Below, piece by piece: positions 4,880-52,149 of a stretch of 64,000 nucleotides of DNA. Within the stretch, counting starts at the first letter, position 1, and every line of letters starts with the position of its first letter. Under the pieces are notes generated by a model. That model made no database searches and was not told the origin of the DNA. It saw only the letters and a program-made list of their open reading frames with translations. This DNA comes from Methanoculleus receptaculi (lineage in GTDB: Archaea; Halobacteriota; Methanomicrobia; Methanomicrobiales; Methanoculleaceae): NCBI RefSeq assembly GCF_033472595.1, contig NZ_CP137642.1:806001-870000 (forward strand), written 5' to 3'. Both the position numbers and the translations under genes were made by a program.

Positions 4880-5560
4880 TCAGGTCTCCTCGACATCTAT
4901 ATCCGGATTTTTCACGCGGTATAGCGTCCCAAACCCCTGGGAGACACCTTTCCCGATCCCGATGTAGTCCGGCAGACGGGCGTTGACCCTGAACTCCCCC
5001 AGAAACCCCGTCATCTCGATCCCCTTGTAGCGTGCCCGCATCGCATCCAGCCGTGAATGGACATACAACCGCCGATCGATGACAATCCCGAGCCCTTTTG
5101 CCAGACTCAGGATGTTCCCGATGAGGATGTTGTTGAGGAATTGCTTCTTCTCGCTCCAGTCTGCGATGGACTGGAACTCCTCGTAGTTTCGTGAGTTCAG
5201 GGCAAGCCAGGGGGAGAGAAACCGGTATTGCAGCGGCCTCCGGGTCGCCTCAATCTCAACCATATGTTCGTACATCACCTTTCCGGTCACACGGTAGGTG
5301 CGTGTGTGCAGGGCAATCTCGGTTATCTCGTCCGAGATCTCCTTCAGGAGCGCTGCCCCTTCATCAAGACCCAGGATGGCAGGGGTGCCCTCCAGCACCT
5401 TGTACTGCACCCGGGGATAGGTGAAGAGCGGGGTTTCGGCATGGTGGTGAAGGAGGGGGTAGCCCGCAAACCGGTTTCCAATATACCCACGCAGTCTGGT
5501 CGCGTCTTCCTGCATCGGCCTGTCGGTCTGCAGGACCATATAAAGCGTGCGTACCTTCAT
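4880..5560 (-). CDS. cas6: Cas6 pre-crRNA endoribonuclease
   Basis: Cas6 cuts the transcripts of the 37-nt repeat arrays into crRNAs. The protein (about 226 residues) begins MKVRTLYMVLQ and has a cluster of histidines near the N-terminus (LLHHHAETPLF) that can supply the catalytic His. It ends with the glycine-rich GIGKGVSQGFGTLYRV loop typical of the second ferredoxin fold. I chose the ATG at 5560; a GTG at 5572 is four codons upstream and overlaps csm5. It lies between csm5 and cas1. Confidence 0.9.
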   Translation of the reverse strand: MKVRTLYMVLQTDRPMQEDATRLRGYIGNRFAGYPLLHHHAETPLFTYPRVQYKVLEGTPAILGLDEGAALLKEISDEITEIALHTRTYRVTGKVMYEHMVEIEATRRPLQYRFLSPWLALNSRNYEEFQSIADWSEKKQFLNNILIGNILSLAKGLGIVIDRRLYVHSRLDAMRARYKGIEMTGFLGEFRVNARLPDYIGIGKGVSQGFGTLYRVKNPDIDVEET

Positions 5561-13708: not shown

Positions 13709-13820
13709 AGCAGAAAATTTGCTCCGATTCGATAAATACCTTTCCATATGGCTCCAATGATCATCCCTATTTAAAGAGAGTGAGCCACTTTTCGTGATCC
13801 CTTTATAAGGTCACTCCGCT
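13709..13820 (-). promoter_or_regulatory. Leader and promoter of CRISPR array 2
   Basis: This stretch is identical to the array 1 leader (3285-3396) but for two bases, including the TATA box TTTAAATA at 13768-13775. Its outer ten bases overlap the stop codon and last codons of the CARF-HEPN gene, which is read in the same direction. Confidence 0.85.
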
Positions 13821-15046
13821 CCGTGGTCAGGCGGGGCGTTTGCCGTAAAGAACTTCTGTAAGCGTTTCGGCAGTCCCTTCGCCCGCCGTTCGAGACTTGT
13901 GACTCTGCTGGCCTCCCGGCTCATGCCACAGTGAGCGAGATCGTTTCGAAGCCCAGTTACCCAGTCCCAGGTTGCGGCCATCTCCTCCCACCCCTCCAGC
14001 ATCTCGAACCGGCTGGAGAGTTCTGTCGGTTCGAAACACTCCATCCGCTGCTTTTTCGCCCCACCAGCAAGCGTCCGCTCAACAACAGAACGGCACTCCC
14101 GATCGAGCCAGTCGGCGGCGTCACCGAACCTGACGATCAGGGTTGTCACCATCCACTCCCGGGCAAGGGTGGCAGCCTGGAGGTAGAGACCCTTCTCCAC
14201 CTGGTACTCGATCAACCGCAGCTGACGCTCCACGTGGCCCCAGTCCGGACCTCGCTGCGGATCAGGGGGAGCCGCAGCGAGCCGGTTCAGATCGCTGATC
14301 CGGTCCATCACAGGGTCAAGCGCCGGGACAAAGGCTGCGATCTCCTCCCCGACAGAATCAAGACCGCTGAAGATGTCTCTCGCGGCAGACAGGGCATCAA
14401 CCGGCCTCGATAGCCTGACGGCGGCGGTGAAGTTCTGCAGCCGCTTTGACCAGCCTGCAAGGTGCGTTGGCGGCGCCCCATCGCCCCTCTGCCGGTGTTC
14501 CTCTGCCTGGATGCCCGCGAGAAGGTCGCGGAGATAGGTTGCATCAACGTGCTCAACAAACGACCGAACAGCCGCAAACCAGTCAAGGATGCTGACGAAG
14601 CCCGTCAGGTCGAAGATGGGGGTGCCGGTCTCATCCCTGGCCTCGTATGCACCGTAGACCACCCTGCAGATCCTCACCTTTTTCGTATCTTTCAGGTACG
14701 CCATCGTCAGGAAGGCGACAAACGGAAGCGACCTGAACCCGTGTGTGATATCAAAGAGGATCTCATCACCGGGCTGAACCTCGTCGCAGATGATCCGGAA
14801 GATCTCCCAGAGCTCCTCCTCGTCCCTCCCATCCGGGATACCGACCTTCCGGCACCCTGGCACCCTCCCGGCAACCATGGGGTAGTTCGTTGCTGCGGCC
14901 CCCTCTGTGGTGAAGAGGACAACTTCATCCACGGGGAAGAACTGGAAGAGGGCCTCCTGGACGATGCTTGTCCGGCAGCACTCCCCCTCCCAGCAGTAGT
15001 TGGTCTCGTGGAGGTTGCCGCTCCCGACAAACGAGAGGCACTTCAT
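13811..15046 (-). CDS. CARF-HEPN ribonuclease (TM1812/Csx2-like)
   Basis: Predicted accessory ribonuclease activated by the cyclic oligoadenylate made by Cas10. The N-terminal half is a CARF-type ligand-binding domain (opening MKCLSFVGSGN, with DITHGFRSLPF near residue 100, the hallmark of the TM1812 family). The C-terminal helical half ends with LRNDLAHCG, an R-X4-H motif of HEPN RNases. It has 411 residues. It is read after, and overlaps by four bases, the second CARF gene, so the two form one transcript. Its stop lies in the array 2 leader. The exact cOA ring size it binds cannot be told from sequence. Confidence 0.85.
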   Translation of the reverse strand: MKCLSFVGSGNLHETNYCWEGECCRTSIVQEALFQFFPVDEVVLFTTEGAAATNYPMVAGRVPGCRKVGIPDGRDEEELWEIFRIICDEVQPGDEILFDITHGFRSLPFVAFLTMAYLKDTKKVRICRVVYGAYEARDETGTPIFDLTGFVSILDWFAAVRSFVEHVDATYLRDLLAGIQAEEHRQRGDGAPPTHLAGWSKRLQNFTAAVRLSRPVDALSAARDIFSGLDSVGEEIAAFVPALDPVMDRISDLNRLAAAPPDPQRGPDWGHVERQLRLIEYQVEKGLYLQAATLAREWMVTTLIVRFGDAADWLDRECRSVVERTLAGGAKKQRMECFEPTELSSRFEMLEGWEEMAATWDWVTGLRNDLAHCGMSREASRVTSLERRAKGLPKRLQKFFTANAPPDHGAE

Positions 15047-23860: not shown

Positions 23861-24155
23861 GTTTGCGAACCTCTGGTGAACAGCGGATCCCCCGGGAGGT
23901 TCGCGGGATTTTCCTTCATGTCCTATATTACCTTTATGGGGGTGGTCACTTCCCTGTCGGAGGTGAGTTCTTGATCTTGATTGATGAAGCACTGTCAAGT
24001 AATATCTCGATATAAATATTTTCAATAAGGGATATATTTTGATCTATCCGATTTTAGCGGGAACAACATTTATCACCCTCTAGATTCATTATCAAATGAT
24101 CTAGCGTCAGACCATATTCCATGAAATGGTTGAACGTTGATCTGGGTTGTTTGCA
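23861..24155 (+). promoter_or_regulatory. Leader of CRISPR array 3
   Basis: This gene-free, A/T-rich stretch lies between cas2 and the first repeat. A TATA box (TATAAATA) is at 24011-24018, with a second A/T block at 24031-24040. Transcription would run rightward through the array. No similarity to the leader of arrays 1 and 2 is visible. Confidence 0.75.
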
Positions 24156-27100
24156 GTCGCACCCTTCACGGGTGCGTGGATTGAAATTTCTTGCGCCGGT
24201 TGTATATCGTCACAACCACGAGTCGCACCCTTCACGGGTGCGTGGATTGAAATATTATGGTCAAGGCCCGGGACAAGCCGGCGATCGAGTCGCACCCTTC
24301 ACGGGTGCGTGGATTGAAATGATGGGTTCGGGCGGGGGCATCTTCGAGCCCGGCGGTCGCACCCTTCACGGGTGCGTGGATTGAAATGTGTTTTGATGAA
24401 TATATGAAAATGTATCGTGGAGGTCGCACCCTTCACGGGTGCGTGGATTGAAATTGCGGTAGGGATGGCTACCTCGCGATCGCCCACCGCGTCGCACCCT
24501 TCACGGGTGCGTGGATTGAAATAGTCGATCGCGATACCACGGGAGTGGGTGCCGCACGTCGCACCCTTCACGGGTGCGTGGATTGAAATTGGTCCCCGGC
24601 CCGCATCGGCGCGGTGATCGGGGCGTCGCACCCTTCACGGGTGCGTGGATTGAAATTCAAACCACTTTCTGGTCCCCGGCCCGCATCGGGTCGCACCCTT
24701 CACGGGTGCGTGGATTGAAATACCGGGCCGCTGCGCTGGTGCGGGTCTGCCGGGATGTCGCACCCTTCACGGGTGCGTGGATTGAAATTCGGTGGTGCGG
24801 ATGCGGCGGACGGAGCTCTTCGGTCGCACCCTTCACGGGTGCGTGGATTGAAATCCGATCATCAGGAGCCGGGACTGGTCTGACGTGAGCGTCGCACCCT
24901 TCACGGGTGCGTGGATTGAAATCGCCCCGCAGGCGAGGCGCGGCTCGACCTCTACAGTCGCACCCTTCACGGGTGCGTGGATTGAAATCCATTCACCCCC
25001 CACCTCAATACAGCGGGGTTCGAGTCGCACCCTTCACGGGTGCGTGGATTGAAATAACGAGACGGTCGATCTCCTCACGACCATCCGCGAGTCGCACCCT
25101 TCACGGGTGCGTGGATTGAAATCTCAAGGACTTGGCGTGTGCCCGGCTCCGGGCTGGTCGCACCCTTCACGGGTGCGTGGATTGAAATTCCAGGGCGAGG
25201 AAGAGGTTCGGCGGGTGCCGATGTCGCACCCTTCACGGGTGCGTGGATTGAAATCTCTTCAGTTGGTGGGGCTGTGTAGACCGTGCCCCGTCGCACCCTT
25301 CACGGGTGCGTGGATTGAAATTCCCATTTGTCGAGTAATTTCCATGTAAGATCTGCGTCGCACCCTTCACGGGTGCGTGGATTGAAATCATCAGGTGTTG
25401 CCACCCAGACCACCCACGACGAGTCGCACCCTTCACGGGTGCGTGGATTGAAATACCTGGCGTATCGGCCGCAACACCTTTGATCCTGGTCGCACCCTTC
25501 ACGGGTGCGTGGATTGAAATATCGTGGATGTCCCATGAGGTGCCGATGAATAGGTGTCGCACCCTTCACGGGTGCGTGGATTGAAATGCAGAGAGATACG
25601 ATGTCAACCACCGGTGAGGTGGGTCGCACCCTTCACGGGTGCGTGGATTGAAATAAGACATCTCACATCTGATTGGGAAACGAGTTTATGTCGCACCCTT
25701 CACGGGTGCGTGGATTGAAATATGTGCGCCCATGCCCAGAGATCAAACCACTCTTGTCGCACCCTTCACGGGTGCGTGGATTGAAATAGAAGCAATTGCT
25801 GCACCACCAATTGCAGTCCCAAGTCGCACCCTTCACGGGTGCGTGGATTGAAATAGGCAGGTACTCCAAGTACTCTATATGGGCTTCCAAGTCGCACCCT
25901 TCACGGGTGCGTGGATTGAAATGGCGAGGTGGAGGTGCCATATCCAATTATCGGCGCGTCGCACCCTTCACGGGTGCGTGGATTGAAATGAGATGCCGAA
26001 CTCCAAAATCGAAAACTTGCCGATGGTCGCACCCTTCACGGGTGCGTGGATTGAAATTCACAGGTGCGAAACTCACAATTAATCGCGAATGTCGCACCCT
26101 TCACGGGTGCGTGGATTGAAATCGGAGGGGAGGCGAGGATCGGCTCGGTCTTATCGAGTCGCACCCTTCACGGGTGCGTGGATTGAAATCGATAGGGATG
26201 ATTACCATGTGGTCTGGCTCGGTCGGTCGCACCCTTCACGGGTGCGTGGATTGAAATAAATTTAGACGATTTTAGAAAAAGAATTGTAAAGGTCGCACCC
26301 TTCACGGGTGCGTGGATTGAAATCATGAGTAGTATATCAGTAGTGAGTAGTATTATCCGGTCGCACCCTTCACGGGTGCGTGGATTGAAATAATCGATAT
26401 GGTGATTTGATTAATGAATTGCATTGTCGCACCCTTCACGGGTGCGTGGATTGAAATAGACGGCGCATCTTTTTAAGGCAGCCGCGTTAACGGTCGCACC
26501 CTTCACGGGTGCGTGGATTGAAATGTGAAACACACGCTGCGGTGCCAGCATTATATAGTCGCACCCTTCACGGGTGCGTGGATTGAAATTAGTCAAAAAC
26601 GGGAAGGAAGTTGTCAGGGTCGTGTCGCACCCTTCACGGGTGCGTGGATTGAAATCGGCTCTGATGTCATCCCTAACCATTTTGTTGTGTCGCACCCTTC
26701 ACGGGTGCGTGGATTGAAATATGTGGTCGGATAGCGAACTAAAAGCCCGAAACAAGGTCGCACCCTTCACGGGTGCGTGGATTGAAATTGATGATGGGGT
26801 ATCCGGCATCTGATAATTCCGGGCGGGTCGCACCCTTCACGGGTGCGTGGATTGAAATCCGGAACCATCACGATTGAGAATCCAGTACCGGAAGTCGCAC
26901 CCTTCACGGGTGCGTGGATTGAAATCCCCAAGGATGGATTATATCAGCCTCATGAAGATGTCGCACCCTTCACGGGTGCGTGGATTGAAATCACAGATCC
27001 GCGCGTACCGACCGCCGTACGCACTGTCGCACCCTTCACGGGTGCGTGGATTGAAATACCGCCTCCGCCCGACGAGATAGGCAATGCCTGCGTCGCACCC

Positions 27101-30100
27101 TTCACGGGTGCGTGGATTGAAATTCCAGATCTGTGGTTGTATTCAAGCACATCAAACCGTCGCACCCTTCACGGGTGCGTGGATTGAAATCCAGATACGC
27201 ACGTTATTAGCGTCGGTTGTTATGGTCGCACCCTTCACGGGTGCGTGGATTGAAATTACCACCTGCTCACCGCCTGGAATAGTACTCTCCGTCGCACCCT
27301 TCACGGGTGCGTGGATTGAAATCTGTAACCGTACTCAGTAGGTACGCACTCATTTTGTCGCACCCTTCACGGGTGCGTGGATTGAAATTCTATACAATAC
27401 TCTCTATGAAAGTGTCTCAAAAAGTCGCACCCTTCACGGGTGCGTGGATTGAAATCTATTGCACCTGCGACCTTGCCTGCTTTCAGTGCGTCGCACCCTT
27501 CACGGGTGCGTGGATTGAAATTCTTGCACTCTGCAATGATGGATCGGTTGTGGCGTCGCACCCTTCACGGGTGCGTGGATTGAAATGGGAGTGAGATCAC
27601 CGGAGGTTTAGGAAGGGAGATGTCGCACCCTTCACGGGTGCGTGGATTGAAATTTCTTGCGCCGGTTGTATATTGTCACAACCACGATAGTCGCACCCTT
27701 CACGGGTGCGTGGATTGAAATAAAACCGTTCCTGAATGATGCTCTTTGGCACTATCGTCGCACCCTTCACGGGTGCGTGGATTGAAATCGGAAGGCAGGC
27801 CGATCCACAAAGACCCCCCCGTCGCACCCTTCACGGGTGCGTGGATTGAAATTGGGAGCGTCCTGATCATCGACCCTGTGACTGAGACGTCGCACCCTTC
27901 ACGGGTGCGTGGATTGAAATTGAGGTGAAAAAATGCGATATACTGGAACAATCACGTCGCACCCTTCACGGGTGCGTGGATTGAAATAGCATCGCCACAC
28001 CAGGGAGGACCGTCGATCCTAGTCGCACCCTTCACGGGTGCGTGGATTGAAATGCTCCTACTGCGATCGCACTCTGGCATAGACGGGTCGCACCCTTCAC
28101 GGGTGCGTGGATTGAAATCTCACGATCGCACTCCCCATGATCATCGGGACGTTCGGTCGCACCCTTCACGGGTGCGTGGATTGAAATTACTCTTTCTCTC
28201 CACCAAAAACCGCTGTGCTTGAAGTCGCACCCTTCACGGGTGCGTGGATTGAAATCTAAAATCTCCCTGCCCAAAATCTCCTTACCTAAAGTCGCACCCT
28301 TCACGGGTGCGTGGATTGAAATTGTAATGCCATATAAAATAACTTAAACGTCATAGTCGCACCCTTCACGGGTGCGTGGATTGAAATCGGGAACGTTGCT
28401 GGGGGCGGTGCACAGTTTGCAGGTCGCACCCTTCACGGGTGCGTGGATTGAAATAATTTTTGGTGTATAATTAAGAGAGAGAACATATGTCGCACCCTTC
28501 ACGGGTGCGTGGATTGAAATCGTCATTATTGTCTACAAAATATTTTGCAGTTCGGTCGCACCCTTCACGGGTGCGTGGATTGAAATCAAGACTTGATGAT
28601 ATTTGAGCTCTCTGAGTAGTAGTCGCACCCTTCACGGGTGCGTGGATTGAAATTTTCATATGGTTTAGCATACCAACTTTGTATAAGTCGCACCCTTCAC
28701 GGGTGCGTGGATTGAAATTTGCATGAGTCGAGAAGGTGAACCAATCTCAAAGAAGTCGCACCCTTCACGGGTGCGTGGATTGAAATAGTGGAGGGTTGTA
28801 ATGGTTAAAACCGTCCTCACGTCGCACCCTTCACGGGTGCGTGGATTGAAATAATTCCAACCCGTCAACGTTCGACTCTCTCTGCGTCGCACCCTTCACG
28901 GGTGCGTGGATTGAAATCACGAGGTGCACATCCTTGTGATCGTCGACGAGGGTCGCACCCTTCACGGGTGCGTGGATTGAAATATTTCGTCTTTTGATTC
29001 GATGAGAACCTGGCCGCGTCGCACCCTTCACGGGTGCGTGGATTGAAATTCGTCTACCACTACCGAGTTTTTAACCAGCCCAAACGTCGCACCCTTCACG
29101 GGTGCGTGGATTGAAATCCGACCTCCTGCTTGGTGAGTAGTGGCACCTGGGTCGCACCCTTCACGGGTGCGTGGATTGAAATCTTGGCTTCAAGTATGTA
29201 TCAAAGCACACGGTGCATGTCGCACCCTTCACGGGTGCGTGGATTGAAATGCCGTGACCCGAGAGATCTCCACCGTACGGGGGTAGTGTCGCACCCTTCA
29301 CGGGTGCGTGGATTGAAATTCGTGACCAGATCGTGTGGGCAGAGGAAAACCCACAGTCGCACCCTTCACGGGTGCGTGGATTGAAATAAATTGTGACCGG
29401 CCGGCCACGCGGTGCATCTCTGGTCGCACCCTTCACGGGTGCGTGGATTGAAATGGACCTCGTGGATGCACCTTACAGGCACGTGCAGGGTCGCACCCTT
29501 CACGGGTGCGTGGATTGAAATCAAGTGTTACATGATATAATAGGTGTATGCACATGTCGCACCCTTCACGGGTGCGTGGATTGAAATACCACAGAGAGCC
29601 GCCGTCCCCCGTTTCACGTTGAAGTCGCACCCTTCACGGGTGCGTGGATTGAAATCGCGAATATTGGATGTCGGAAATTGCAGGCAAACGTCGCACCCTT
29701 CACGGGTGCGTGGATTGAAATGTCTTGTGGGGGAAGGGCGAGCCGATAGTTCCGAGTCGCACCCTTCACGGGTGCGTGGATTGAAATCAGAGGAACACGC
29801 CGAGGCGGCCTTTTGGTGCGGCGTCGCACCCTTCACGGGTGCGTGGATTGAAATCGGGGATACGTCGGGACTGGACACCCCAGGAGGATGTCGCACCCTT
29901 CACGGGTGCGTGGATTGAAATCGGTGGCTCATCATCTCCAGACAACCTTCGGGATGTCGCACCCTTCACGGGTGCGTGGATTGAAATCTGGTGAGACCGC
30001 CGCCGTGACGCAGGCACAACGTCGCACCCTTCACGGGTGCGTGGATTGAAATTTCTAACGGCCGCCACCCTTTGGGCCGCCGCGGAAAGTCGCACCCTTC

Positions 30101-32779
30101 ACGGGTGCGTGGATTGAAATAGCGCTGGCGGCGAACACAGGCCTCAACGATACCCGTCGCACCCTTCACGGGTGCGTGGATTGAAATACAGATATCACAA
30201 CGGCGGATAATCTCTCATCACGTCGCACCCTTCACGGGTGCGTGGATTGAAATCCCCGCCACTACAGGAGGGATGGTTCGAAGAATTCGTCGCACCCTTC
30301 ACGGGTGCGTGGATTGAAATGACAATTCGCCCAGGAACTTTGTAATGTCCTGTAGGTCGCACCCTTCACGGGTGCGTGGATTGAAATTAAAAAAGGAGGA
30401 ATTAAAGATACTGATCTCGTGAGTCGCACCCTTCACGGGTGCGTGGATTGAAATGGTAACGTTTGCGCTCCAGTATCAGAACGACATCGTCGCACCCTTC
30501 ACGGGTGCGTGGATTGAAATCCGGAGATCGACATCTCCACTACCGGGGCGACCGTCGCACCCTTCACGGGTGCGTGGATTGAAATAAAAATCTCTTTAGA
30601 TTATGGTCTTTTCTTGAAAAAGTCGCACCCTTCACGGGTGCGTGGATTGAAATCAATTATATTATATCCTGATGGAATTGAAATTGGAGTCGCACCCTTC
30701 ACGGGTGCGTGGATTGAAATCGTTCGGATGAACCGAACCCGGGCCCACAACATAGTCGCACCCTTCACGGGTGCGTGGATTGAAATCCCAAGGTGGGGGT
30801 AAAAATGATAATAACAATAAGTCGCACCCTTCACGGGTGCGTGGATTGAAATAAAACCACATTTTCGACACCTGAACAAGGAACCATTGTCGCACCCTTC
30901 ACGGGTGCGTGGATTGAAATAAGATGGAAAGAACGCTAATTACTTTTTTATTAGTCGCACCCTTCACGGGTGCGTGGATTGAAATTGTGAAAATGTTTAC
31001 GGCTATAATGGTGTAGACGTGTCGCACCCTTCACGGGTGCGTGGATTGAAATCCCAGCATTTCCGCCAGGATAAAAACTCCCAAGGTAGTCGCACCCTTC
31101 ACGGGTGCGTGGATTGAAATTATATATCTGATATTCTCTACATTTTGCGCCCAAGTCGCACCCTTCACGGGTGCGTGGATTGAAATTTTAATCTCATTTT
31201 TAAAAGCGCAATTCAATAAAGTCGCACCCTTCACGGGTGCGTGGATTGAAATTAAATTGTTATTTTGCCATTTTACCTTTAATATAGTCGCACCCTTCAC
31301 GGGTGCGTGGATTGAAATTTTTAACTCTATTATAAAATTCCAAAGCGAAAACGTCGCACCCTTCACGGGTGCGTGGATTGAAATTATACCAAAACTTGTC
31401 GTTATCTTTTTCTTTAAGTCGCACCCTTCACGGGTGCGTGGATTGAAATAAACATGACCGTGTGGTCGCTCATGAGGTATAGGACGTCGCACCCTTCACG
31501 GGTGCGTGGATTGAAATTCTAAAGCGCATAAAATCGTTGCTGAACCAGACAGTCGCACCCTTCACGGGTGCGTGGATTGAAATTCATTAGAGCCACATAT
31601 TAGCGATATAGAGCACGTCGCACCCTTCACGGGTGCGTGGATTGAAATAATAACATACAAGTTTTATAACAAGTAATATTGTGTCGCACCCTTCACGGGT
31701 GCGTGGATTGAAATCTTTGAATTGGAGCCAGAGGAATTCTGGCGTATAAGTCGCACCCTTCACGGGTGCGTGGATTGAAATCGCTACCGGCACGGGATGT
31801 CCTATCCCAAGGGCAGTCGCACCCTTCACGGGTGCGTGGATTGAAATTTGCCTGGGTAGAAGGTACAAGAGCACCATCACAGTCGCACCCTTCACGGGTG
31901 CGTGGATTGAAATCTGCAAAACGGGCGGATGGACGGCAGCAACATGCAAGTCGCACCCTTCACGGGTGCGTGGATTGAAATTTGATGGACTATCGCTGCA
32001 AGACATTACAAAGTTGTCGCACCCTTCACGGGTGCGTGGATTGAAATTGTCTCCGGTTGGCGCGTACCAATAGTCGCACAGAGTCGCACCCTTCACGGGT
32101 GCGTGGATTGAAATTTGATGAACGAATACACCCGGAAACCCACGTTAAGTCGCACCCTTCACGGGTGCGTGGATTGAAATTTATCGACGAGGTCGAGAAC
32201 ACTATCGCTTACCAATGTCGCACCCTTCACGGGTGCGTGGATTGAAATTGTCTCCGGTTGGCGCGTACCAATAGTCGCACAGAGTCGCACCCTTCACGGG
32301 TGCGTGGATTGAAATTGTCTCCGGTTGGCGCGTACCAATAGTCGCACAGAGTCGCACCCTTCACGGGTGCGTGGATTGAAATTAGGTGAAACGGCAATTT
32401 CCGTTGAACAATCGGGTCGCACCCTTCACGGGTGCGTGGATTGAAATCTTTATTTCTATCCCCAATATTACAAGGTATCGAGGTCGCACCCTTCACGGGT
32501 GCGTGGATTGAAATAGAGTTTTGAATTTCCACGTAATCGAGCCTGGAAGGTCGCACCCTTCACGGGTGCGTGGATTGAAATCAGGAGGCCTGTGCCTTGA
32601 CGACTGGTCACTGTAGTTGCACCCTTCACGGGTGCGTGGATTGAAATACCATCAACATCGCAGAGAAGTGTGCAAATTATGTCGCACCCTTCACGGGTGC
32701 GTGGATTGAAATTCATCAGTAACATCGCTGGCATCAATACACCGGACGTCGCACCCTTCACGGGTGCGTGGATTGAAAT
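24156..32779 (+). CRISPR. CRISPR array 3 (type I-C, 130 repeats, 129 spacers)
   Basis: I counted 130 copies of a 32-nt repeat, from 24156-24187 to 32748-32779, with spacers of about 33-37 nt. The repeat has a perfect 7-bp hairpin (CGCACCC, loop TTCAC, GGGTGCG) and ends GTGGATTGAAAT, matching the type I-C class except for the final T instead of C. The repeats hardly vary; the copy at 32616 has GTTGC for GTCGC, near the old end. New spacers enter at the left. The spacer at 32048-32082 recurs at 32249-32283 and 32316-32350. Spacers near the leader show overlapping and repeated sampling of the same target, see findings. Confidence 0.99.
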
Positions 32780-42151: not shown

Positions 42152-43264
42152 CTATAGATGAGGAGTGTGTCTAAAAAACCTTATCTCATGATCCATCCAC
42201 GAGCCGGTTATTCTGCCATCGAGCGCCAGTTTTCCAAGGACGCTCTCGGTCTCCGGAAGGAGCGGCCGGGGGCGGGCGTTTGAGAGCGGTGTCCCCGGCA
42301 GCGGCATGAAGTAGTGGATATGCGCCTTCCCGGCCCGCGTCACCTCCCTCACCAGGTCGAGCGTTGCGCGCTGGTCATCATCGGTCTCAAATGGCAGCCC
42401 CAGGATGAAATCGACGACCGGAACGAGCCCGTATTCGCGGCAGAGGTCGACGGCGGAAAGGACGTCCTGGACCGTATGCCCCCGGTGCAGACGGCGCAGC
42501 ACCGCATCACTCCCCGACTGCGCCCCAAAGTGAAGACGGGTGTTGGCGCAGTGGCCGGTCACGAGTTCAAGGGACTCTCGCGAGACGCACTCCGGGCGCA
42601 CCTCGCCCGGAAATGTGCCAAAGAAGACCCGCCGACCATCGAGTTGCCGGAGGAGCCGTTCTACCCTGTCAAGCCGCAGATGGATGCCGTCAGAGCCGTA
42701 GGCAAAGGCGTTCGGGGCTACGAACCGGATATCCCGGTAGCGCGAGGCGTAGCGGACGATCTCGTCGATGGAGCGGTGGCGCATACACCGCCCGAAGAGG
42801 CGCGGCGTCTGGCAGTAGCCGCAGGAGAATGGGCATCCCCTCGTTATCTCGACAAAACCCTTGATACGCGAGAAGGGCGGGTAACCGTCGAGGAGAACGG
42901 TGTGTTGTGCAGGGGTGTAGCCCGCAGAGGTGGCAACCCCTGGAGGAGCGTTCCGCCCATCCTCGATGGCGGCAAGAAGCGCCGGGAGGGTGTACTCGCC
43001 CTCCCCGACGACGACGTAATCGGCGTATTCGGCCACCTCACGGTAGCAGGCGGAGGCATGAGGCCCGCCGACAATCGTTATACAGTCTGCGCCGGCGATC
43101 TCATCACGGTAGACGCGCTCGTTGATAGAGTTCAGGCTGTAGATGGTGACGTCCGGCCGGGGGCCGTCCGCCACATCGAGTTCGTAGCCGTGCACCTCGC
43201 ACGCCGCAGCAAGCGCGGCGAGGGTGTTCCTCGCCTGGGGGATGTATCGCCAGTATACCCTCAT
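42152..43264 (-). CDS. B12-binding/radical SAM protein (MJ1487-like)
   Basis: The N-terminal part resembles a B12-binding Rossmann domain (DVTIYSLNSINERVYRDEI, ITIVGGPHASACYREV, VVVGEGEYTLPALL). The radical SAM core then carries the cluster motif CPFSCGYCQ, a Cys-X3-Cys-X2-Cys, near residue 155. The later DFILGLPFETDDD strand is typical of elongator-type radical SAM enzymes. The product is unknown. The ATG at 43264 (MRVYWRYIPQARN) is chosen over an earlier in-frame ATG. The first 49 bases of the gene are copied twice at the junctions of the triplicated region. Confidence 0.85.
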   Translation of the reverse strand: MRVYWRYIPQARNTLAALAAACEVHGYELDVADGPRPDVTIYSLNSINERVYRDEIAGADCITIVGGPHASACYREVAEYADYVVVGEGEYTLPALLAAIEDGRNAPPGVATSAGYTPAQHTVLLDGYPPFSRIKGFVEITRGCPFSCGYCQTPRLFGRCMRHRSIDEIVRYASRYRDIRFVAPNAFAYGSDGIHLRLDRVERLLRQLDGRRVFFGTFPGEVRPECVSRESLELVTGHCANTRLHFGAQSGSDAVLRRLHRGHTVQDVLSAVDLCREYGLVPVVDFILGLPFETDDDQRATLDLVREVTRAGKAHIHYFMPLPGTPLSNARPRPLLPETESVLGKLALDGRITGSWMDHEIRFFRHTPHL

Positions 43265-43302
43265 ATCACGGGTTTTGCGGGCGTGCCGGGTGCTCAAAGC
43301 GT

Positions 43303-43722
43303 TCAGACTGACTTCTCCCAGCCCTGGCCCATGTCAACGATCGGGCGGACCTCCGTGACCTCAAATGTCAGCGTGGCGTGCATCATCTTCGCCGCATCCT
43401 CGCCCAGTGCCGCTGCAACCTCTCTCTTGTAGTCCTCAAGTTTCTTACCCGAGGTCGCGCAGTCCTTCAGTTTCAGGTAGACCCGCAGACCCTTCCAGTC
43501 CATGAGGGTCTCCCCTGGTTCGAGGATGGTGTAGACGGCATGGGGATTCTGCTGCAGGTAGTCGAGAGTGCGGTTCTTTCCAAGCCCCATAACGACGGTC
43601 TTCTCGTCGACCATCTGCGGCGAGCCGAAGAGAGCTGCGTTTACCTTTCCCTCTCTGTTAGCGGTGCTCAGGATGCCTATCCTTGGCTGTTTGTTGAAGT
43701 AGTCCATCAATCTGGATGACAT
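43303..43722 (-). CDS. Pyridoxamine-phosphate-oxidase-like FMN protein, copy 1
   Basis: A 139-residue split-barrel protein of the PNPOx-like superfamily, likely binding FMN or F420 and reducing a small substrate. It starts MSSRLMDYFNKQPRIGILSTAN, the usual opening strand, with VVMGLGKNRTLDYLQQNP in the middle, a typical flavin-site stretch. It ends DMGQGWEKSV. It differs from copies 2 and 3 by Gln for Arg in SPQMVDEKT. It starts 38 bases before the radical-SAM start and reads in the same direction. Confidence 0.85.
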   Translation of the reverse strand: MSSRLMDYFNKQPRIGILSTANREGKVNAALFGSPQMVDEKTVVMGLGKNRTLDYLQQNPHAVYTILEPGETLMDWKGLRVYLKLKDCATSGKKLEDYKREVAAALGEDAAKMMHATLTFEVTEVRPIVDMGQGWEKSV

Positions 43723-43831
43723 AATTCTTTCCTCCTATCGATTCGAAAATTGTCACTTCTGGGTAAAAAAGGTATGGTTGAGTGCCCTTCCGGCGCGCAA
43801 ATGAAACATTTTCAGCCGCGTCCGCCCAGTT

Positions 43832-44638
43832 TCAGTAGCCTGTGGCGTAGTAGTAGCCGTTTTCTCTGTGGATATGAACCGGAACGCGGAAGAGTTCGCC
43901 GATATTTCTCTCAGTCAGCACCTCGGCCTTTTCGCGGTCCATCACGATCGCACCATCCCGCATCAGAACCACCCGCGAGATTTCCGGGATGATATCATGG
44001 AGGTTGTGCGTCACCAGGACGATTCCCGTCCCCGACCTGGCAATCTTTCTAAGGGTCTTTCGGAAGGAGTGGAGCGCGTGCAGGTCGAGACTGTTTGTGG
44101 GTTCGTCGAGTACGAGAGTGCCCGGGTCGTGGACGAGCGCCCTTCCGATCAGAAGCCTGCGGGCCTCACCCGAGGAGACCTCCGTCATCGGCCGGTCGGC
44201 GAGGTGGGCGACATCCAGGAACTCGAGGATATCGTCCGCCTTCTGCTCCATCGCCGGTGTCACCTCATGGTAGAAGAGCCCGATGCTCGAGAAGAACCCG
44301 GAGAGCACAACCTCGCGCCCCGAGATCCCGCGGGTGAAGGTATACTGGAGGTCGCCGGAGACGAGCCCGATGTGCGATCGGAGGTCAAAGGCATCCCATG
44401 TATCAAGCCCGCAGAACCGAAAGACAGTCTCCGAGCCCGGCGAGGAGGGGTAGTATTCCCGGGTGACCGCCCGGATGAGCGACGATTTCCCGGCGCCGTT
44501 TGGCCCGAGAATGGCGAGATGCTCGCCCTCCTGTATCGTGAGCGAGATGGAGTCAAGGAGTCTATGGCCGCCCCGGACAATGGTGACGTTTCGAAACTCG
44601 ATGAGCGGGTGGTGGGGAGAGTGGTCTTCAGCCGTCAT
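43832..44638 (-). CDS. ABC transporter ATP-binding protein, copy 1
   Basis: A 268-residue ABC ATPase from the ATG at 44638 (MTAEDHSPHHPLIEF). Walker A is GPNGAGKSSL, the signature is VSSGEARRLL, and Walker B is LVLDEPTNSLD with the switch His in VTHNLHD. No permease or binding protein is nearby, so it may be a stand-alone ATPase related to the YlmA/ModF group. The frame continues upstream of the ATG to 44953, but that part is non-coding in character. It has Pro in FRVPVHIH where copies 2 and 3 have Gln. Confidence 0.88.
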   Translation of the reverse strand: MTAEDHSPHHPLIEFRNVTIVRGGHRLLDSISLTIQEGEHLAILGPNGAGKSSLIRAVTREYYPSSPGSETVFRFCGLDTWDAFDLRSHIGLVSGDLQYTFTRGISGREVVLSGFFSSIGLFYHEVTPAMEQKADDILEFLDVAHLADRPMTEVSSGEARRLLIGRALVHDPGTLVLDEPTNSLDLHALHSFRKTLRKIARSGTGIVLVTHNLHDIIPEISRVVLMRDGAIVMDREKAEVLTERNIGELFRVPVHIHRENGYYYATGY

Positions 44639-45062
44639 CTTGACCGCTCCGTCGCGTGGGTGTTCTGGTAGAGGGATTCCATCGAACCTCGCCGCTCTGT
44701 ATGTTGGACGGCTCTCTTCAAAAGGTAACCTTCTCTCGTGGCGCGGGGCGGCGGGGTGTTCTGCAAGTATATACCGTTCCGGGGTATGCAGAGACGAGGG
44801 AGGGAAAGTTTCCTTTCCCCTCCATAGATACAGTGCCACCGTGGAGACCTCTTCTCTGGTGTCAATGTGAACGCCCTCACCGAAATCCCATTCCTGCCAA
44901 CGCGAACGACTCGATGGCATCGGTGAACCGGCTTGATAGCCCCCCGCATACAACCAGGAGACGCTGGCCGGGTTTGTGTCACAGAATCGTTGATCTGATG
45001 GCCTCTACTCGCCCATCGTGCAGACCATAAGATTAATCCCCCCTCCCCTGGAACAGAGCCAT
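44639..45062. other. Non-coding spacer of the repeated unit, copy 1
   Basis: This divergent promoter region lies between the ABC and DUF169 genes and recurs at 47166-47590 and 49694-50117. It has a 7-bp hairpin (GGGAAAG 44802-44808 with CTTTCCC 44813-44819). Its segment 44821-44930 resembles the intergenic region at 36370-36475, and 44986-45002 resembles 39992-40008. I see no gene in it. Confidence 0.5.
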
Positions 45063-45959
45063 ATGGACACAGAACTGCGCGACACCTACATCAGGCTTCA
45101 CGGGACCTGCTTCCCGGGAGCCGAACTCCCGATCACCTTTGAGGTCGGGGGAGCGACGGAGGGTGTGGAGGAGATCCCTCCCCCTAAAGGCTGGAGATGC
45201 TTCGTCTGTGACGTCGCCAGGGTGCGGAAGGGCCAGAGCCTCGCCTTCTCTGAAGACTCGATCGGCTGCCGCGGCGGGAGGTTTTACCTCGGTTACGACA
45301 CCGAAAGAGCTCCCGACTTCCGCTACTTCCTCTCATACGGCAAGCCAGGCGTCGTTGAGGGAGAGCGATACCGGCAGACTCCCGAACTGGTTGACGAACT
45401 CGACCGGGGGACAGCCCGGATACCGACGAAGGGAAAGAGCATCGTCTTCAAGCGCTGGGACAACCTGACCGCTGCAGACAACCCTGACGCCGTGGTCTTC
45501 TTCGTCCGGCCCGAGGTGATCTCCGGGCTCTTTACGCTTGCAAACTTCGATCGGCCCGACCCCTGCGGGGTTATCTGTCCGTTCGGCGCCGGGTGCAGCT
45601 CGGTCTTTCACTACCCCTGGCTTGAGCAGCAGAGCGATGACCCAAAGGCCGTTCTCGGGCTGTTTGACCCTTCGGCACGGCCCTGCGTGCCGGTTGATGT
45701 CCTGACGATGGCGTTCCCCATGAAGAAGTTTGAGAAGGTCAGCGGCGAGGGTGTTCCTCGCCTGGGGGATGTATCGCCAGTATACCCTCATATCACGGGT
45801 TTTGCTGGCGTGCCGGGTGCTCAAAGCGTTCAGACCGACTTCTCCCAGCCCTGGCCCATGTCAACGATCGGGCGGACCTCCGTGACCTCAAACGTCAGCG
45901 TGGCGTGCATCATCTTCGCCGCATCCTCGCCCAGTGCCGCTGCAACCTCTCTCTTGTAG
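45063..45959 (+). pseudogene. DUF169 protein, copy 1, 3' truncated and fused to foreign sequence
   Basis: The frame starts at ATG 45063 (MDTELRDTYIRLHGTCFPG) and is DUF169-like up to FPMKKFEKV near 45740. It then runs across the duplication junction into antisense radical-SAM and split-barrel sequence for about 72 codons. The natural end, present in copy 3, is lost. Conserved cysteines (CFVCDVARV and CGVICPFGAGC) remain. The tail overlaps the 3' end of split-barrel copy 2. It may be inactive, or it may make a 298-residue fusion protein. Confidence 0.8.
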
Positions 45960-46249
45960 TCCTCAAGTTTCTTACCCGAGGTTGCGCAGTCCTTCAGTTT
46001 CAGGTAGACCCGCAGACCCTTCCAGTCCATGAGGGTCTCCCCCGGTTCGAGGATGGTGTAGACGGCATGGGGATTCTGCTGCAGGTAGTCGAGAGTGCGG
46101 TTCTTTCCAAGCCCCATAACGACGGTCTTCTCGTCGACCATCCGCGGCGAGCCGAAGAGAGCCGCGTTTACCTTTCCCTCTCTGTTAGCGGTGCTCAGGA
46201 TGCCTATCCTTGGCTGTTTGTTGAAGTAGTCCATCAATCTGGATGACAT
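45830..46249 (-). CDS. Pyridoxamine-phosphate-oxidase-like FMN protein, copy 2
   Basis: Complete 139-residue copy, identical to copy 3 at the protein level and one residue from copy 1 (SPRMVDEKT). Its upstream region is the same as in copy 1, so the promoter should be equal. Upstream of its stop the sequence is the 49-base remnant of the radical-SAM 5' end (45743-45791). Confidence 0.85.
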   Translation of the reverse strand: MSSRLMDYFNKQPRIGILSTANREGKVNAALFGSPRMVDEKTVVMGLGKNRTLDYLQQNPHAVYTILEPGETLMDWKGLRVYLKLKDCATSGKKLEDYKREVAAALGEDAAKMMHATLTFEVTEVRPIVDMGQGWEKSV

Positions 46250-46358
46250 AATTCTTTCCTCCTATCGATCCGAAAATTGTCACTTCTGGGTAAAAAAGGT
46301 ATGGGTGAGTGCCCTTCCGGCGCGCAAATGAAACATTTTCAGCCGCGTCCGCCCAATT

Positions 46359-47165
46359 TCAGTAGCCTGTGGCGTAGTAGTAGCCGTTTTCTCTGTGGAT
46401 ATGAACCTGAACGCGGAAGAGTTCGCCGATATTTCTCTCAGTCAGCACCTCAGCCTTTTCGCCGTCCATCACGATCGCACCATCCCGCATCAGGACGACC
46501 CGCGAGATTTCCGGGATGATATCATGGAGGTTGTGCGTCACCAGGATGATTCCCGTCCCCGACCTGGCAATCTTTCTAAGGGTCTTTCGGAAGGAGTGGA
46601 GCGCGTGCAGGTCGAGACTGTTTGTGGGTTCGTCGAGTACGAGAGTGCCCGGGTCGTGGACGAGCGCCCTTCCGATCAGAAGCCTGCGGGCCTCGCCCGA
46701 GGAGACCTCCGTCATCGGCCGGTCGGCGAGGTGGGCGACATCCAGGAACTCGAGGATATCGTCCGCCTTCTGCTCCATCGCCGGTGTCACCTCATGGTAG
46801 AAGAGCCCGATGCTCGAGAAGAACCCGGAGAGCACAACCTCGCGGCCCGAGATCCCGCGGGTGAAGGTATACTGGAGGTCGCCGGAGACGAGCCCGATGT
46901 GGGACCGGAGGTCAAAGGCATCCCATGTATCAAGCCCGCGGAACCGAAAGACAGTCTCCGAGCCCGGCGAGGAGGGGTAGTATTCCCGCGTGATCGCCCG
47001 GATGAGCGACGATTTCCCGGCGCCGTTTGGCCCGAGAATGGCGAGATGCTCGCCCTCCTGTATCGTGAGCGAGACGGCGTCAAGGAGTCTATGGCCGCCC
47101 CGGACAATGGTGACGTTTCGAAACTCGATGAGCGGGTGGGGGGGAGAGTGGTCTTCAGCCGTCAT
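46359..47165 (-). CDS. ABC transporter ATP-binding protein, copy 2
   Basis: Complete 268-residue copy with the same Walker A, signature and Walker B motifs. It differs from copy 1 at several sites along the whole gene: LLDAVSLTIQ for LLDSISLTIQ, FRFRGLDTW for FRFCGLDTW, RAITREYY for RAVTREYY, and MDGEKAEV for MDREKAEV. None touches a catalytic motif. It is therefore the most diverged of the three copies. Confidence 0.88.
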   Translation of the reverse strand: MTAEDHSPPHPLIEFRNVTIVRGGHRLLDAVSLTIQEGEHLAILGPNGAGKSSLIRAITREYYPSSPGSETVFRFRGLDTWDAFDLRSHIGLVSGDLQYTFTRGISGREVVLSGFFSSIGLFYHEVTPAMEQKADDILEFLDVAHLADRPMTEVSSGEARRLLIGRALVHDPGTLVLDEPTNSLDLHALHSFRKTLRKIARSGTGIILVTHNLHDIIPEISRVVLMRDGAIVMDGEKAEVLTERNIGELFRVQVHIHRENGYYYATGY

Positions 47166-47590
47166 CTTGACCGCTCCGTCGCGTGGGTGTTCTGGTAGAG
47201 GGATTCCATCGAACCTCGCCGCTCTGTATTGTTGGACGGCTCTCTTCAAAAGGTAACCTTCTCTCGTGGCGCCGGGCGGCGAGGTGTTCTGCAAGTATAT
47301 ACCGTTCCGGGGTATGCAGAGACGAGGGAGGGAAAGTTTCCTTTCCCCTCCATAGATACAGTGCCACCGTGGAGACCTCTTCTCTGGTGTCAATGTGAAC
47401 AACCTCACCGAAATCCCATTCCTGCCAACGCGAACGACTCGATGGCATCGGTGAACCGGCTTGATAGCCCCCCGCATACAACCAGGAGATGCTGGCCGGG
47501 TTTGTGTCACAGAATCGTTGATCTGATGGCCTCTACTCGCCCATCGTGCAGACCATAAGATTAATCCCCCCTCCCCTGGAACAGAGCCAT

Positions 47591-48487
47591 ATGGACACAG
47601 AACTGCGCGACACCTACATCAGGCTTCACGGGACCTGCTTCCCGGGAGCCGAACTCCCGATCACCTTTGAGGTCGGGGGAGCGACGGAGGGTGTGGAGGA
47701 GATCCCTCCCCCTAAAGGCTGGAGATGCTTCGTCTGTGACGTCGCCAGGGTGCGGAGGGGCCAGAGCCTCGCATTCTCTGAAGACTCGATCGGCTGCCGC
47801 GGCGGGAGGTTTTACCTCGGTTACGACACCGAAAGAGCTCCCGACTTCCGCTACTTCCTCTCATACGGCAAGCCCGGCGTCGTTGAGGGAGAGCGATACC
47901 GGCAGACTCCCGAACTGGTTGACGAACTCGACCGGGGGACAGCCCGGATACCGACGAAGGGAAAGAGCATCGTCTTCAAGCGCTGGGACAACCTGACCGC
48001 TGCAGACAACCCTGACGCCGTGGTCTTCTTCGTCCGGCCCGAGGTGATCTCCGGGCTCTTTACGCTTGCAAACTTCGATCGGCCCGATCCCTGCGGGGTT
48101 ATCTGTCCGTTCGGCGCCGGGTGCAGCTCGGTCTTTCACTACCCCTGGCTTGAGCAGCAGAGCGATGACCCAAAGGCCGTTCTCGGGCTGTTTGACCCTT
48201 CGGCACGGCCCTGCGTGCCGGTTGATGTCCTGACGATGGCGTTCCCCATGAAGAAGTTTGAGAAGGTCATCGGCGAGGGTGTTCCTCGCCTGGGGGATGT
48301 ATCGCCAGTATACCCTCATATCACGGGTTTTGCTGGCGTGCCGGGTGCTCAAAGCGTTCAGACCGACTTCTCCCAGCCCTGGCCCATGTCAACGATCGGG
48401 CGGACCTCCGTGACCTCAAACGTCAGCGTGGCGTGCATCATCTTCGCCGCATCCTCGCCCAGTGCCGCTGCAACCTCTCTCTTGTAG
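47591..48487 (+). pseudogene. DUF169 protein, copy 2, 3' truncated and fused
   Basis: Same arrangement as copy 1. The DUF169 part runs from ATG 47591 to KKFEKVIG near 48273, and the frame continues into antisense sequence to 48487. It has Arg in VRRGQSLAF where copies 1 and 3 have Lys. The natural C-terminus is missing. The junction base differs from that of copy 1 (GTCATCGGCG against GTCAGCGGCG). Confidence 0.8.
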
Positions 48488-48777
48488 TCCTCAAGTTTCT
48501 TACCCGAGGTTGCGCAGTCCTTCAGTTTCAGGTAGACCCGCAGACCCTTCCAGTCCATGAGGGTCTCCCCCGGTTCGAGGATGGTGTAGACGGCATGGGG
48601 ATTCTGCTGCAGGTAGTCGAGAGTGCGGTTCTTTCCAAGCCCCATAACGACGGTCTTCTCGTCGACCATCCGCGGCGAGCCGAAGAGAGCCGCGTTTACC
48701 TTTCCCTCTCTGTTAGCGGTGCTCAGGATGCCTATCCTTGGCTGTTTGTTGAAGTAGTCCATCAATCTGGATGACAT
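48358..48777 (-). CDS. Pyridoxamine-phosphate-oxidase-like FMN protein, copy 3
   Basis: Complete 139-residue copy, same protein as copy 2. It lies in the left part of unit 3, which matches unit 2 at the sites where units 1 and 2 differ. Confidence 0.85.
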   Translation of the reverse strand: MSSRLMDYFNKQPRIGILSTANREGKVNAALFGSPRMVDEKTVVMGLGKNRTLDYLQQNPHAVYTILEPGETLMDWKGLRVYLKLKDCATSGKKLEDYKREVAAALGEDAAKMMHATLTFEVTEVRPIVDMGQGWEKSV

Positions 48778-48886
48778 AATTCTTTCCTCCTATCGATCCG
48801 AAAATTGTCACTTCTGGGTAAAAAAGGTATGGTTGAGTGCCCTTCCGGCGCGCAAATGAAACATTTTCAGCCGCGTCCGCCCAATT

Positions 48887-49693
48887 TCAGTAGCCTGTGG
48901 CGTAGTAGTAGCCGTTTTCTCTGTGGATATGAACCTGAACGCGGAAGAGTTCGCCGATATTTCTCTCAGTCAGCACCTCAGCCTTTTCGCCGTCCATCAC
49001 GATCGCACCATCCCGCATCAGGACGACCCGCGAGATTTCCGGGATGATATCATGGAGGTTGTGCGTCACCAGGATGATTCCCGTCCCCGACCTGGCAATC
49101 TTTCTAAGGGTCTTTCGGAAGGAGTGGAGCGCGTGCAGGTCGAGACTGTTTGTGGGTTCGTCGAGTACGAGAGTGCCCGGGTCGTGGACGAGCGCCCTTC
49201 CGATCAGAAGCCTGCGGGCCTCACCCGAGGAGACCTCCGTCATCGGCCGGTCGGCGAGGTGGGCGACATCCAGGAACTCGAGGATATCGTCCGCCTTCTG
49301 CTCCATCGCCGGTGTCACCTCATGGTAGAAGAGCCCGATGCTCGAGAAGAACCCGGAGAGCACAACCTCGCGCCCCGAGATCCCGCGGGTGAAGGTATAC
49401 TGGAGGTCGCCGGAGACGAGCCCGATGTGCGATCGGAGGTCAAAGGCATCCCATGTATCAAGCCCGCAGAACCGAAAGACAGTCTCCGAGCCCGGCGAGG
49501 AGGGGTAGTATTCCCGGGTGACCGCCCGGATGAGCGACGATTTCCCGGCGCCGTTTGGCCCGAGAATGGCGAGATGCTCGCCCTCCTGTATCGTGAGCGA
49601 GATGGAGTCAAGGAGTCTATGGCCGCCCCGGACAATGGTGACGTTTCGAAACTCGATGAGCGGGTGGTGGGGAGAGTGGTCTTCAGCCGTCAT
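48887..49693 (-). CDS. ABC transporter ATP-binding protein, copy 3 (mosaic)
   Basis: Complete 268-residue copy with all ABC motifs. Its C-terminal end has the copy 2 residues (GIILVTH, MDGEKAEV, FRVQVHIH), while its N-terminal two thirds have the copy 1 residues (LLDSISLTIQ, RAVTREYY, FRFCGLDTW). The switch falls between about 49076 and 49222. This is the mark of recombination between copies. Confidence 0.88.
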   Translation of the reverse strand: MTAEDHSPHHPLIEFRNVTIVRGGHRLLDSISLTIQEGEHLAILGPNGAGKSSLIRAVTREYYPSSPGSETVFRFCGLDTWDAFDLRSHIGLVSGDLQYTFTRGISGREVVLSGFFSSIGLFYHEVTPAMEQKADDILEFLDVAHLADRPMTEVSSGEARRLLIGRALVHDPGTLVLDEPTNSLDLHALHSFRKTLRKIARSGTGIILVTHNLHDIIPEISRVVLMRDGAIVMDGEKAEVLTERNIGELFRVQVHIHRENGYYYATGY

Positions 49694-50117
49694 CTTGACC
49701 GCTCCGTCGCGTGGGTGTTCTGGTAGAGGGATTCCATCGAACCTCGCCGCTCTGTATGTTGGACGGCTCTCTTCAAAAGGTAACCTTCTCTCGTGGCGCG
49801 GGGCGGCGGGGTGTTCTGCAAGTATATACCGTTCCGGGGTATGCAGAGACGAGGGAGGGAAAGTTTCCTTTCCCCTCCATAGATACAGTGCCACCGTGGA
49901 GACCTCTTCTCTGGTGTCAATGTGAACGCCCTCACCGAAATCCCATTCCTGCCAACGCGAACGACTCGATGGCATCGGTGAACCGGCTTGATAGCCCCCC
50001 GCATACAACCAGGAGACGCTGGCCGGGTTTGTGTCACAGAATCGTTGATCTGATGGCCTCTACTCGCCCATCGTGCAGATCATAAGATTAATCCCCCCTC
50101 CCCTGGAACAGAGCCAT

Positions 50118-50888
50118 ATGGACACAGAACTGCGCGACACCTACATCAGGCTTCACGGGACCTGCTTCCCGGGAGCCGAACTCCCGATCGCCTTTGAGGT
50201 CGGGGGAGCGACGGAGGGTGTGGAGAAGATCCCTCCCCCTAAAGGCTGGAGATGCTTCGTCTGTGACGTCGCCAGGGTGCGGAAGGGCCAGAGCCTCGCC
50301 TTCTCTGAAGACTCGATCGGCTGCCGCGGCGGGAGGTTTTACCTCGGTTACGACACCGAAAGAGCTCCCGACTTCCGCTACTTCCTCTCATACGGCAAGC
50401 CAGGCGTCGTTGAGGGAGAGCGATACCGGCAGACTCCCGAACTGGTTGACGAACTCGACCGGGGGACAGCCCGGATACCGACGAAGGGAAAGAGCATCGT
50501 CTTCAAGCGCTGGGACAACCTGACCGCTGCAGACAACCCTGACGCCGTGGTCTTCTTCGTCCGGCCCGAGGTGATCTCCGGGCTCTTTACGCTTGCAAAC
50601 TTCGATCGGCCCGACCCCTGCGGGGTTATCTGTCCGTTCGGCGCCGGGTGCAGCTCGGTCTTTCACTACCCCTGGCTTGAGCAGCAGAGCGATGACCCAA
50701 AGGCCGTTCTCGGGCTGTTTGACCCTTCGGCACGGCCCTGCGTGCCGGTTGATGTCCTGACGATGGCGTTTCCCATGAAGAAGTTTGAGAAGGTCATCGG
50801 GTTCATGGAGGAGAGTTTCCTGATCACGGGCACCTGGGAGAAGGTGATGAAGAAGATCGCACGGAGCAACGCGCTCCACTCACCCTGA
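50118..50888 (+). CDS. DUF169 protein, copy 3, complete
   Basis: The only copy with a natural end: 256 residues, closing KKFEKVIGFMEESFLITGTWEKV and then a short basic tail. DUF169 proteins are found in methanogens and some anaerobes, and their function is unknown. Conserved cysteines (CFVCDV; CGVICPFGAGCSS) could bind a metal or cluster. It has Ala in ELPIAFEVG and Lys in GVEKIPPP, where the truncated copies have Thr and Glu. Confidence 0.85.
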   Translation: MDTELRDTYIRLHGTCFPGAELPIAFEVGGATEGVEKIPPPKGWRCFVCDVARVRKGQSLAFSEDSIGCRGGRFYLGYDTERAPDFRYFLSYGKPGVVEGERYRQTPELVDELDRGTARIPTKGKSIVFKRWDNLTAADNPDAVVFFVRPEVISGLFTLANFDRPDPCGVICPFGAGCSSVFHYPWLEQQSDDPKAVLGLFDPSARPCVPVDVLTMAFPMKKFEKVIGFMEESFLITGTWEKVMKKIARSNALHSP

Positions 50889-51300: not shown

Positions 51301-52149
51301 TCACGTCGCGGCCGCTTTGGCCAGCTTCTCCTTGTATGACTCAAGGATCTGGATGATAAACCGCTGGTGCTCCTCCAGCGCCTGCTCATCAAGGGGTGAT
51401 GTCTCGATCCCGACTGCGTAGAGCAGGATGAGAGTGTTGTCCAGGTCAAGCGTGGCAGGGTCGTCGATCAGGTTCTCGGGGAGGTGGATGGCAAGATACT
51501 CGCTGTCCTCCTCCGTGAAGACGTGCTCGGGGTATGTCACCACCCGTGAGATGGCAAGACCCGACGCACGCTCACGCAGGATCAGGAGCGCACGCTCAAG
51601 CACCCCGGGGTATGGCTCGATCGCCTTGAGCCGGTCAAGCGCTTTGTTGCAGTTGTCAGTCGCGGACTCATACAGTCCAAACTTAAATCTCAACAGAGCC
51701 TGCGCAACAAGGTGACCGGTCTCCTCATCGACCCGCGAAAGGAGCGGCTCGATCCGCATGATATACTCATTCAACATCTGTTTCATCGTCTTCTTCTCCG
51801 TTTTTTTGACGTTAAACAACTTCTCCACCCGGACAGAAAGAAGGCTGATCGTCGCCGCAAAGACCACCTGCACGATCACCATCGACCCAACCTCATTTGG
51901 AAGAAGAAAGATGAGGACAGCGTAAAGTGGCGTAAAGAGCGAGACAAGATCCCGCCGCGGCTTGGAGTAGGCCTGGTAAAAGAGAAGGCACGAAGCGATC
52001 ACACAGCCGGCAATCCCCGCCCAGAAACCGTAGGAAAACTCCACAACCTCCATCAAGAGCAGACCGATCCCGATACCCCCAAATGAGACTGCAGGAACCG
52101 CCATCCAGAGACGTGACGCCGGCCCGGGTGTTATGGTGTTTGTGGTCAT
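51301..52149 (-). CDS. Uncharacterised membrane protein with a helical cytoplasmic domain
   Basis: I do not recognise this 282-residue protein. The first 110 residues hold about four hydrophobic segments (MAVPAVSFGGIGIGLLLMEV, FWAGIAGCVIASCLLFY, LFTPLYAVLIFLL, MVIVQVVFAATISLL). The remainder is soluble, helical and rich in charge (KKTEKKTMKQMLNEYI, ALLRFKFGLYESATDNCNKALDRLKAI), somewhat like a TPR. The start is the ATG at 52149. It lies 64 bases after the coiled-coil gene, and both read leftward. Confidence 0.75.
   Translation of the reverse strand: MTTNTITPGPASRLWMAVPAVSFGGIGIGLLLMEVVEFSYGFWAGIAGCVIASCLLFYQAYSKPRRDLVSLFTPLYAVLIFLLPNEVGSMVIVQVVFAATISLLSVRVEKLFNVKKTEKKTMKQMLNEYIMRIEPLLSRVDEETGHLVAQALLRFKFGLYESATDNCNKALDRLKAIEPYPGVLERALLILRERASGLAISRVVTYPEHVFTEEDSEYLAIHLPENLIDDPATLDLDNTLILLYAVGIETSPLDEQALEEHQRFIIQILESYKEKLAKAAAT

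Follow-up and report, generated by a model that had tools for sequence, protein, structure and literature searches.

The chromosome of Methanoculleus receptaculi contains a 2.5-kb unit three times, head to tail (2527, 2528, and 2527 bp), and this array is a real tandem gene amplification, well preserved and ordinary in kind, with its copy number as assembled. The units were defined by a direct-repeat search and end-to-end alignment in a stretch of 64,000 nucleotides (the window) of the genome, which is a single contig of 1,980,381 bp with 99.8% completeness in the genus Methanoculleus. When the whole genome was searched, exactly three near-full-length copies were found and none elsewhere. The preliminary description had proposed a tandem triplication, and it stands, as three copies lie at the proposed place with equal start-to-start spacing (2527/2528 bp) and a common junction of DUF169 with radical-SAM sequence. 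Head-to-tail direct repeats with an identical novel junction characterize tandem amplification by unequal homologous recombination.

Table 1 Features of the array and its genes (positions in the window)
Feature	Position	Strand	Remarks
Unit copy 1 (a)	43216..45742		2527 bp; left edge runs on into intact radical-SAM gene
Unit copy 2 (b)	45743..48270		2528 bp; right two thirds most divergent; extra T at 47229
Unit copy 3 (c)	48271..50797		2527 bp; mosaic; right edge runs on into intact DUF169 gene
Junction 1	45738..45750		GTCAGCGGCGAGG; one substitution vs junction 2
Junction 2	48266..48278		GTCATCGGCGAGG; CGG overlap
Radical-SAM/B12-binding protein, intact	42152..43297	-	TIGR04013, MJ_1487 family; 474 bits, cut-off 251
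PNPOx-like split-barrel flavoprotein, copy 1	43303..43722	-	139 aa, complete; derived R36Q
Flavoprotein, copy 2	45830..46249	-	complete
Flavoprotein, copy 3	48358..48777	-	complete; DNA same as copy 2
ABC ATPase (ModF-like), copy 1	43832..44638	-	268 aa, complete; single ABC domain, no adjoining permease
ABC ATPase, copy 2	46359..47165	-	complete
ABC ATPase, copy 3	48887..49693	-	complete
DUF169, truncated copy 1	45018..45959	+	~241 native + 72 unrelated residues; without conserved C-terminus
DUF169, truncated copy 2	47546..48487	+	fusion same as DUF169 copy 1
DUF169 protein, intact	50073..50888	+	271 aa; COG2043; PF02596 100 bits vs gathering score 27

The unit borders agree with the breakpoints described earlier, inside the radical-SAM gene on the left and inside DUF169 on the right. 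With a slash at the border, the left native end of the array reads ...AAGCG/CGGCGAGG and the right native end ...GTCAT/CGGGTTC. At both junctions, the DUF169 codons ending in ...KKFEKV run into the antisense strand of the 5′ end of the radical-SAM gene. Because both junctions are the same, one founding duplication was followed by expansion. The previously noticed CGG at both native ends, common to GTCATCGGGTTC on the right and AAGCGCGGCGAGG on the left, is a real overlap, although a match of at least 3 bp has a computed chance of ~5% at a random junction, and the 3-bp overlap alone is weak evidence.

The flavoprotein and the ATPase are the two genes repeated in full, and their reading frames are open in all three copies. 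The flavoprotein scores 19 bits against PNPOx_N (cut-off 28), with a weak match in 13/13 homologues (best E 2e-6), and a profile search of PDB returned the FMN-binding protein 3in6 (E 3e-6). Its predicted model has low confidence (pLDDT 44) and is of no use for the fold. From these sequence comparisons, the flavoprotein appears only distantly PNPOx-like. The ATPase was also considered as a true ModF (PRK10938, with two ABC domains and a cut-off of 459), but it scores 163 bits with one domain, and is called ModF-like only. Between ATPase copies 1 and 2, there are 8 synonymous and 8 non-synonymous changes; non-synonymous changes among the ATPase copies are not strongly depleted, the numbers being too small to tell. 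Incidentally, the flavoprotein homologue of UBA206 (L075:5261-5683) has an in-frame stop at a tryptophan that is conserved in 13 aligned homologues, which reflects either a pseudogene or a sequence error, and one TAG was also seen in the flavoprotein of another genome (G120) from the search of the order.

DUF169, on the other hand, is not supported as part of a dosage unit as had been proposed, as two of its three copies are without the invariant C-terminus and it is not amplified as a working gene. Near the C-terminus, S, F, L, T, and W show no variation among 22 homologues (Methanoculleus, Bacteroidales, Chloroflexota, and others), and these residues (SFL, T, and W) are absent from copies 1 and 2, where the match ends after residue 241. 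In a predicted model of the protein (pLDDT 82), the cut would fall inside a helix and the final helix would be lost. Truncated copy 1 also passes the PF02596 threshold, but such a match does not amount to an intact gene because the C-terminus with the invariant residues is lost. The radical-SAM gene is intact once, and units 2 and 3 each contain a stub duplicated from its 5′ end. DUF169 and the radical-SAM gene, with one intact copy each, are passengers.

A PDB fold search with the DUF169 model gave no match with E below 0.7, and a literature search for DUF169 function found none. DUF169 is an occasional neighbour of SepRS genes (PMC8762117), and interruption of a Desulfovibrio member raised fitness with nitrate (PMC4001038). 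For the spacer between the ATPase and DUF169 (44820-45010), which is shorter in the nearest relative, partial matches of 72-94% identity lie at ~13 other sites of the genome; the spacer is perhaps a decayed dispersed repeat.

A single-copy ancestral state in relatives is another mark of tandem amplification, and relatives have the single copy that the preliminary description anticipated. In the nearest relative from the genus search (G030), which is ~84% identical to each unit, the whole region is collinear and the unit is single-copy. Among the other sampled genomes of the genus, all 27 with a flavoprotein hit have the gene once, compared with three times here. Across the order, it was found in 59 of 150 genomes (E 1e-15), and three copies occur in this genome only. 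Two distant genomes of the order have two copies, but on different contigs, so these were not seen in tandem.

The three copies were said to show few differences, which holds only in part. They are not nearly identical: the aligned units have 41 variable columns and differ by 0.8-1.4% per pair. Over 2527 sites, the substitutions number 36 (1.4%) between copies 1 and 2, 24 (0.95%) between copies 2 and 3, and 20 (0.8%) between copies 1 and 3. When the sites were labeled by the odd copy, they fell into 8 runs, compared with a mean of 24.6 in shuffled orders, and 0 of 100,000 shuffles gave so low a number. The odd one is copy 1 at 43279-44020 (with one exception), copy 2 at 44168-44962 and again up to 45560 after a copy 3 block, and copy 3 at 45025-45171. 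At 43237-44100, there is 1 difference in 864 positions between copies 2 and 3, whereas copy 1 differs from them at 15-16. At 44100-45000, copies 1 and 3 have no difference in 900 aligned columns, and each differs from copy 2 at 15. Copy 3 is a mosaic whose left third resembles copy 2 and whose middle resembles copy 1.

This block arrangement of the variable sites results from recombination or gene conversion between copies, and block-wise allele sharing beyond chance is what identifies gene conversion between paralogues. The pattern points to both crossing-over and gene conversion between the units. A plain unequal crossover of two units predicts a hybrid middle unit, with a left part matching copy 3 and a right part matching copy 1. 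This prediction holds for the left block and the one at 45025-45171, while the middle block needs later conversion between copies 1 and 3.

The age of the array was examined using a homologue in UBA456 (contig L058), a metagenome-assembled genome titled Methanocorpusculaceae, where the block is present once and 98% identical. With derived alleles polarised with G030 as root, UBA456 shares those of copy 2 at 5 sites, of copies 2 and 3 at 3 sites, and of copies 1 and 2 at 2 sites. All three copies have just 1 derived allele in common that UBA456 lacks. The homologue thus nests within the variation of the three copies, so their alleles separated from one another before the homologue separated from them. 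The array had been called recent, but fresh copies are not supported, as local divergence between the alleles reaches ~2% and the homologue from UBA456 branches among them. The array appears fairly long-lived, with alleles that are not very recent. Either the duplication is that old and was partly homogenised, or a younger array received a mixture of alleles from two strains.

The overall sequence of events is probably as follows. The ancestor would have had a single-copy locus of radical-SAM, flavoprotein, ABC ATPase, and DUF169 genes, as in G030. End-joining or replication slippage would then have linked the DUF169 interior to the radical-SAM interior at the 3-bp CGG match. We infer this order, and also that the two 2.5-kb copies became three by homologous unequal crossing-over; the present mosaic would have come from subsequent gene conversion among the units. 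Misassembly would instead have expanded a single copy falsely to three, and 2.5-kb repeats are a known trouble for short reads. A false expansion would, however, yield identical copies. Here the genome is one 1.98-Mb contig, the 41 variable columns are patterned in blocks, and the junction base occurs in two versions, while a mixture of strains cannot make the junction of DUF169 with radical-SAM sequence. An artefact is thus very improbable.

We consider that the array would most likely be retained by extra dosage of the flavoprotein and the ATPase, although our confidence in this is evenly balanced. Selection for dosage is plausible but unproven. At a mutation rate of 3e-10 to 1e-9 per site and generation, assumed here, the 36 substitutions would need about 7-24 million generations. 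In Pseudomonas aeruginosa, a 2.6-kb duplication is lost at ~1e-4 per generation and lasts for thousands of generations; without selection, its amplifications stabilize at 2-3 copies (PMC12607827). The earlier statement that such amplification usually means selection is therefore too strong, and a three-copy 2.5-kb array alone is no sign of selection, because the P. aeruginosa amplifications reach the same numbers unselected. Accordingly, the array could be a neutral passenger that gives no dosage benefit and decays slowly, which is only somewhat less likely than retention by dosage. Half-lives of thousands of generations are nevertheless far shorter than the millions needed, unless the alleles came from elsewhere or recombination is far rarer in this archaeon, and the open frames of both genes also speak against neutrality. 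If the differences arose after the duplication, the array would have outlived a P. aeruginosa-type half-life by orders of magnitude, which, by this analogy across domains of life, would favor selected retention.

The differences may, however, have come from outside. A young array could have imported its ~2% allelic differences by homologous recombination with other strains of the species, a possibility we rate slightly below that of the neutral passenger. The uneven allele sharing with UBA456 looks like two mixed standing haplotypes, and the Methanoculleus fragments of UBA456 are 92-98% identical to this genome, which makes 2% a strain-level diversity. On the other hand, a duplication that preceded divergence from the UBA456 donor, with partial homogenisation by gene conversion, gives the same pattern.

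The array resembles the P. aeruginosa constructs (PMC12607827) in its ~2.5-kb unit, head-to-tail order, and 2-3 copies with a number changed by homologous recombination. Unlike them, it is natural and archaeal, started at a 3-bp match, and has 1-2% divergence and conversion mosaics, with no known selection. As in the concerted evolution of prokaryotic paralogues (PMC6053082), including a methanogen mtrA pair (PMC4632066), tracts are shared within a genome by gene conversion. In contrast to those cases, the array has adjacent multi-gene units in one lineage and partial tracts, and no long-lasting homogenisation across species. It is a clear natural case of a small persistent archaeal tandem amplification, in which the breakpoints can be read, an outgroup has the single copy, and conversion tracts are visible. 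The candidates relevant for dosage are narrowed to the PNPOx-like flavoprotein and the ModF-like ATPase.

A functional link of the three genes had also been suggested. Across the genus, the genes stay in the order flavoprotein, ATPase, DUF169, but the intervals mostly span 1.3-2.7 kb and 1.3-5.9 kb and contain other genes. The link is weak because the order is kept mostly with this 1-6 kb spacing. An operon triad was rejected, as these intervals in other Methanoculleus are occupied by further genes, and DUF169 lies on the opposite strand. In M. sediminis, a gap holds what we take, from inspection, to be an F420-type LLM oxidoreductase. Here and in G030, the genes may lie close together because those between them were lost.

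The UBA456 contig has its own peculiarities. In its segment L058:2443-9055 (G035/G085), Methanoculleus-like fragments that match six distant places of this genome at 92-98% identity form a patchwork, and the pieces overlap by 7-10 bp where they join (5196-5202, 5401-5407, and 6219-6228), whereas the right flank of the contig is true Methanocorpusculaceae. The flavoprotein/ATPase/DUF169 block there starts 21 bp inside the left breakpoint of the unit. At its right edge (L058:9025-9055) is a 31-bp sequence starting TTAACTTGCGGGGGTGAAGGGGGC, with ~20 occurrences in this genome (also L105-L109), resembling the end of an IS200/IS605-type element. The patchwork represents either transfer of shattered DNA or a chimeric contig. 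It is unlikely, but conceivable, that the flavoprotein-ATPase(-DUF169) block is a selected, spreading methanogen module that was amplified here and moved into UBA456 within the patchwork.

Viral contigs yielded no match to the junction and a single weak relative of the flavoprotein, and a search for RNA families within 40-52 kb found none. Beside the array, a 282-aa protein encoded at 51301-52149 is conserved in G030 and has no Pfam or NCBIfam match. Elsewhere in the window, long CRISPR-like arrays lie at 1761-3309, 11786-13823, and 24155-32251, with two repeat types, GTTGCAGTCCTTGTTTTGCTGGAAGGTCGTATGCAAC and GTCGCACCCTTCACGGGTGCGTGGATTGAAAT. The array of the second type is very large. Two spacer-repeat units are themselves tandemly repeated, one at 2361-2506 and another at 11787-12007.
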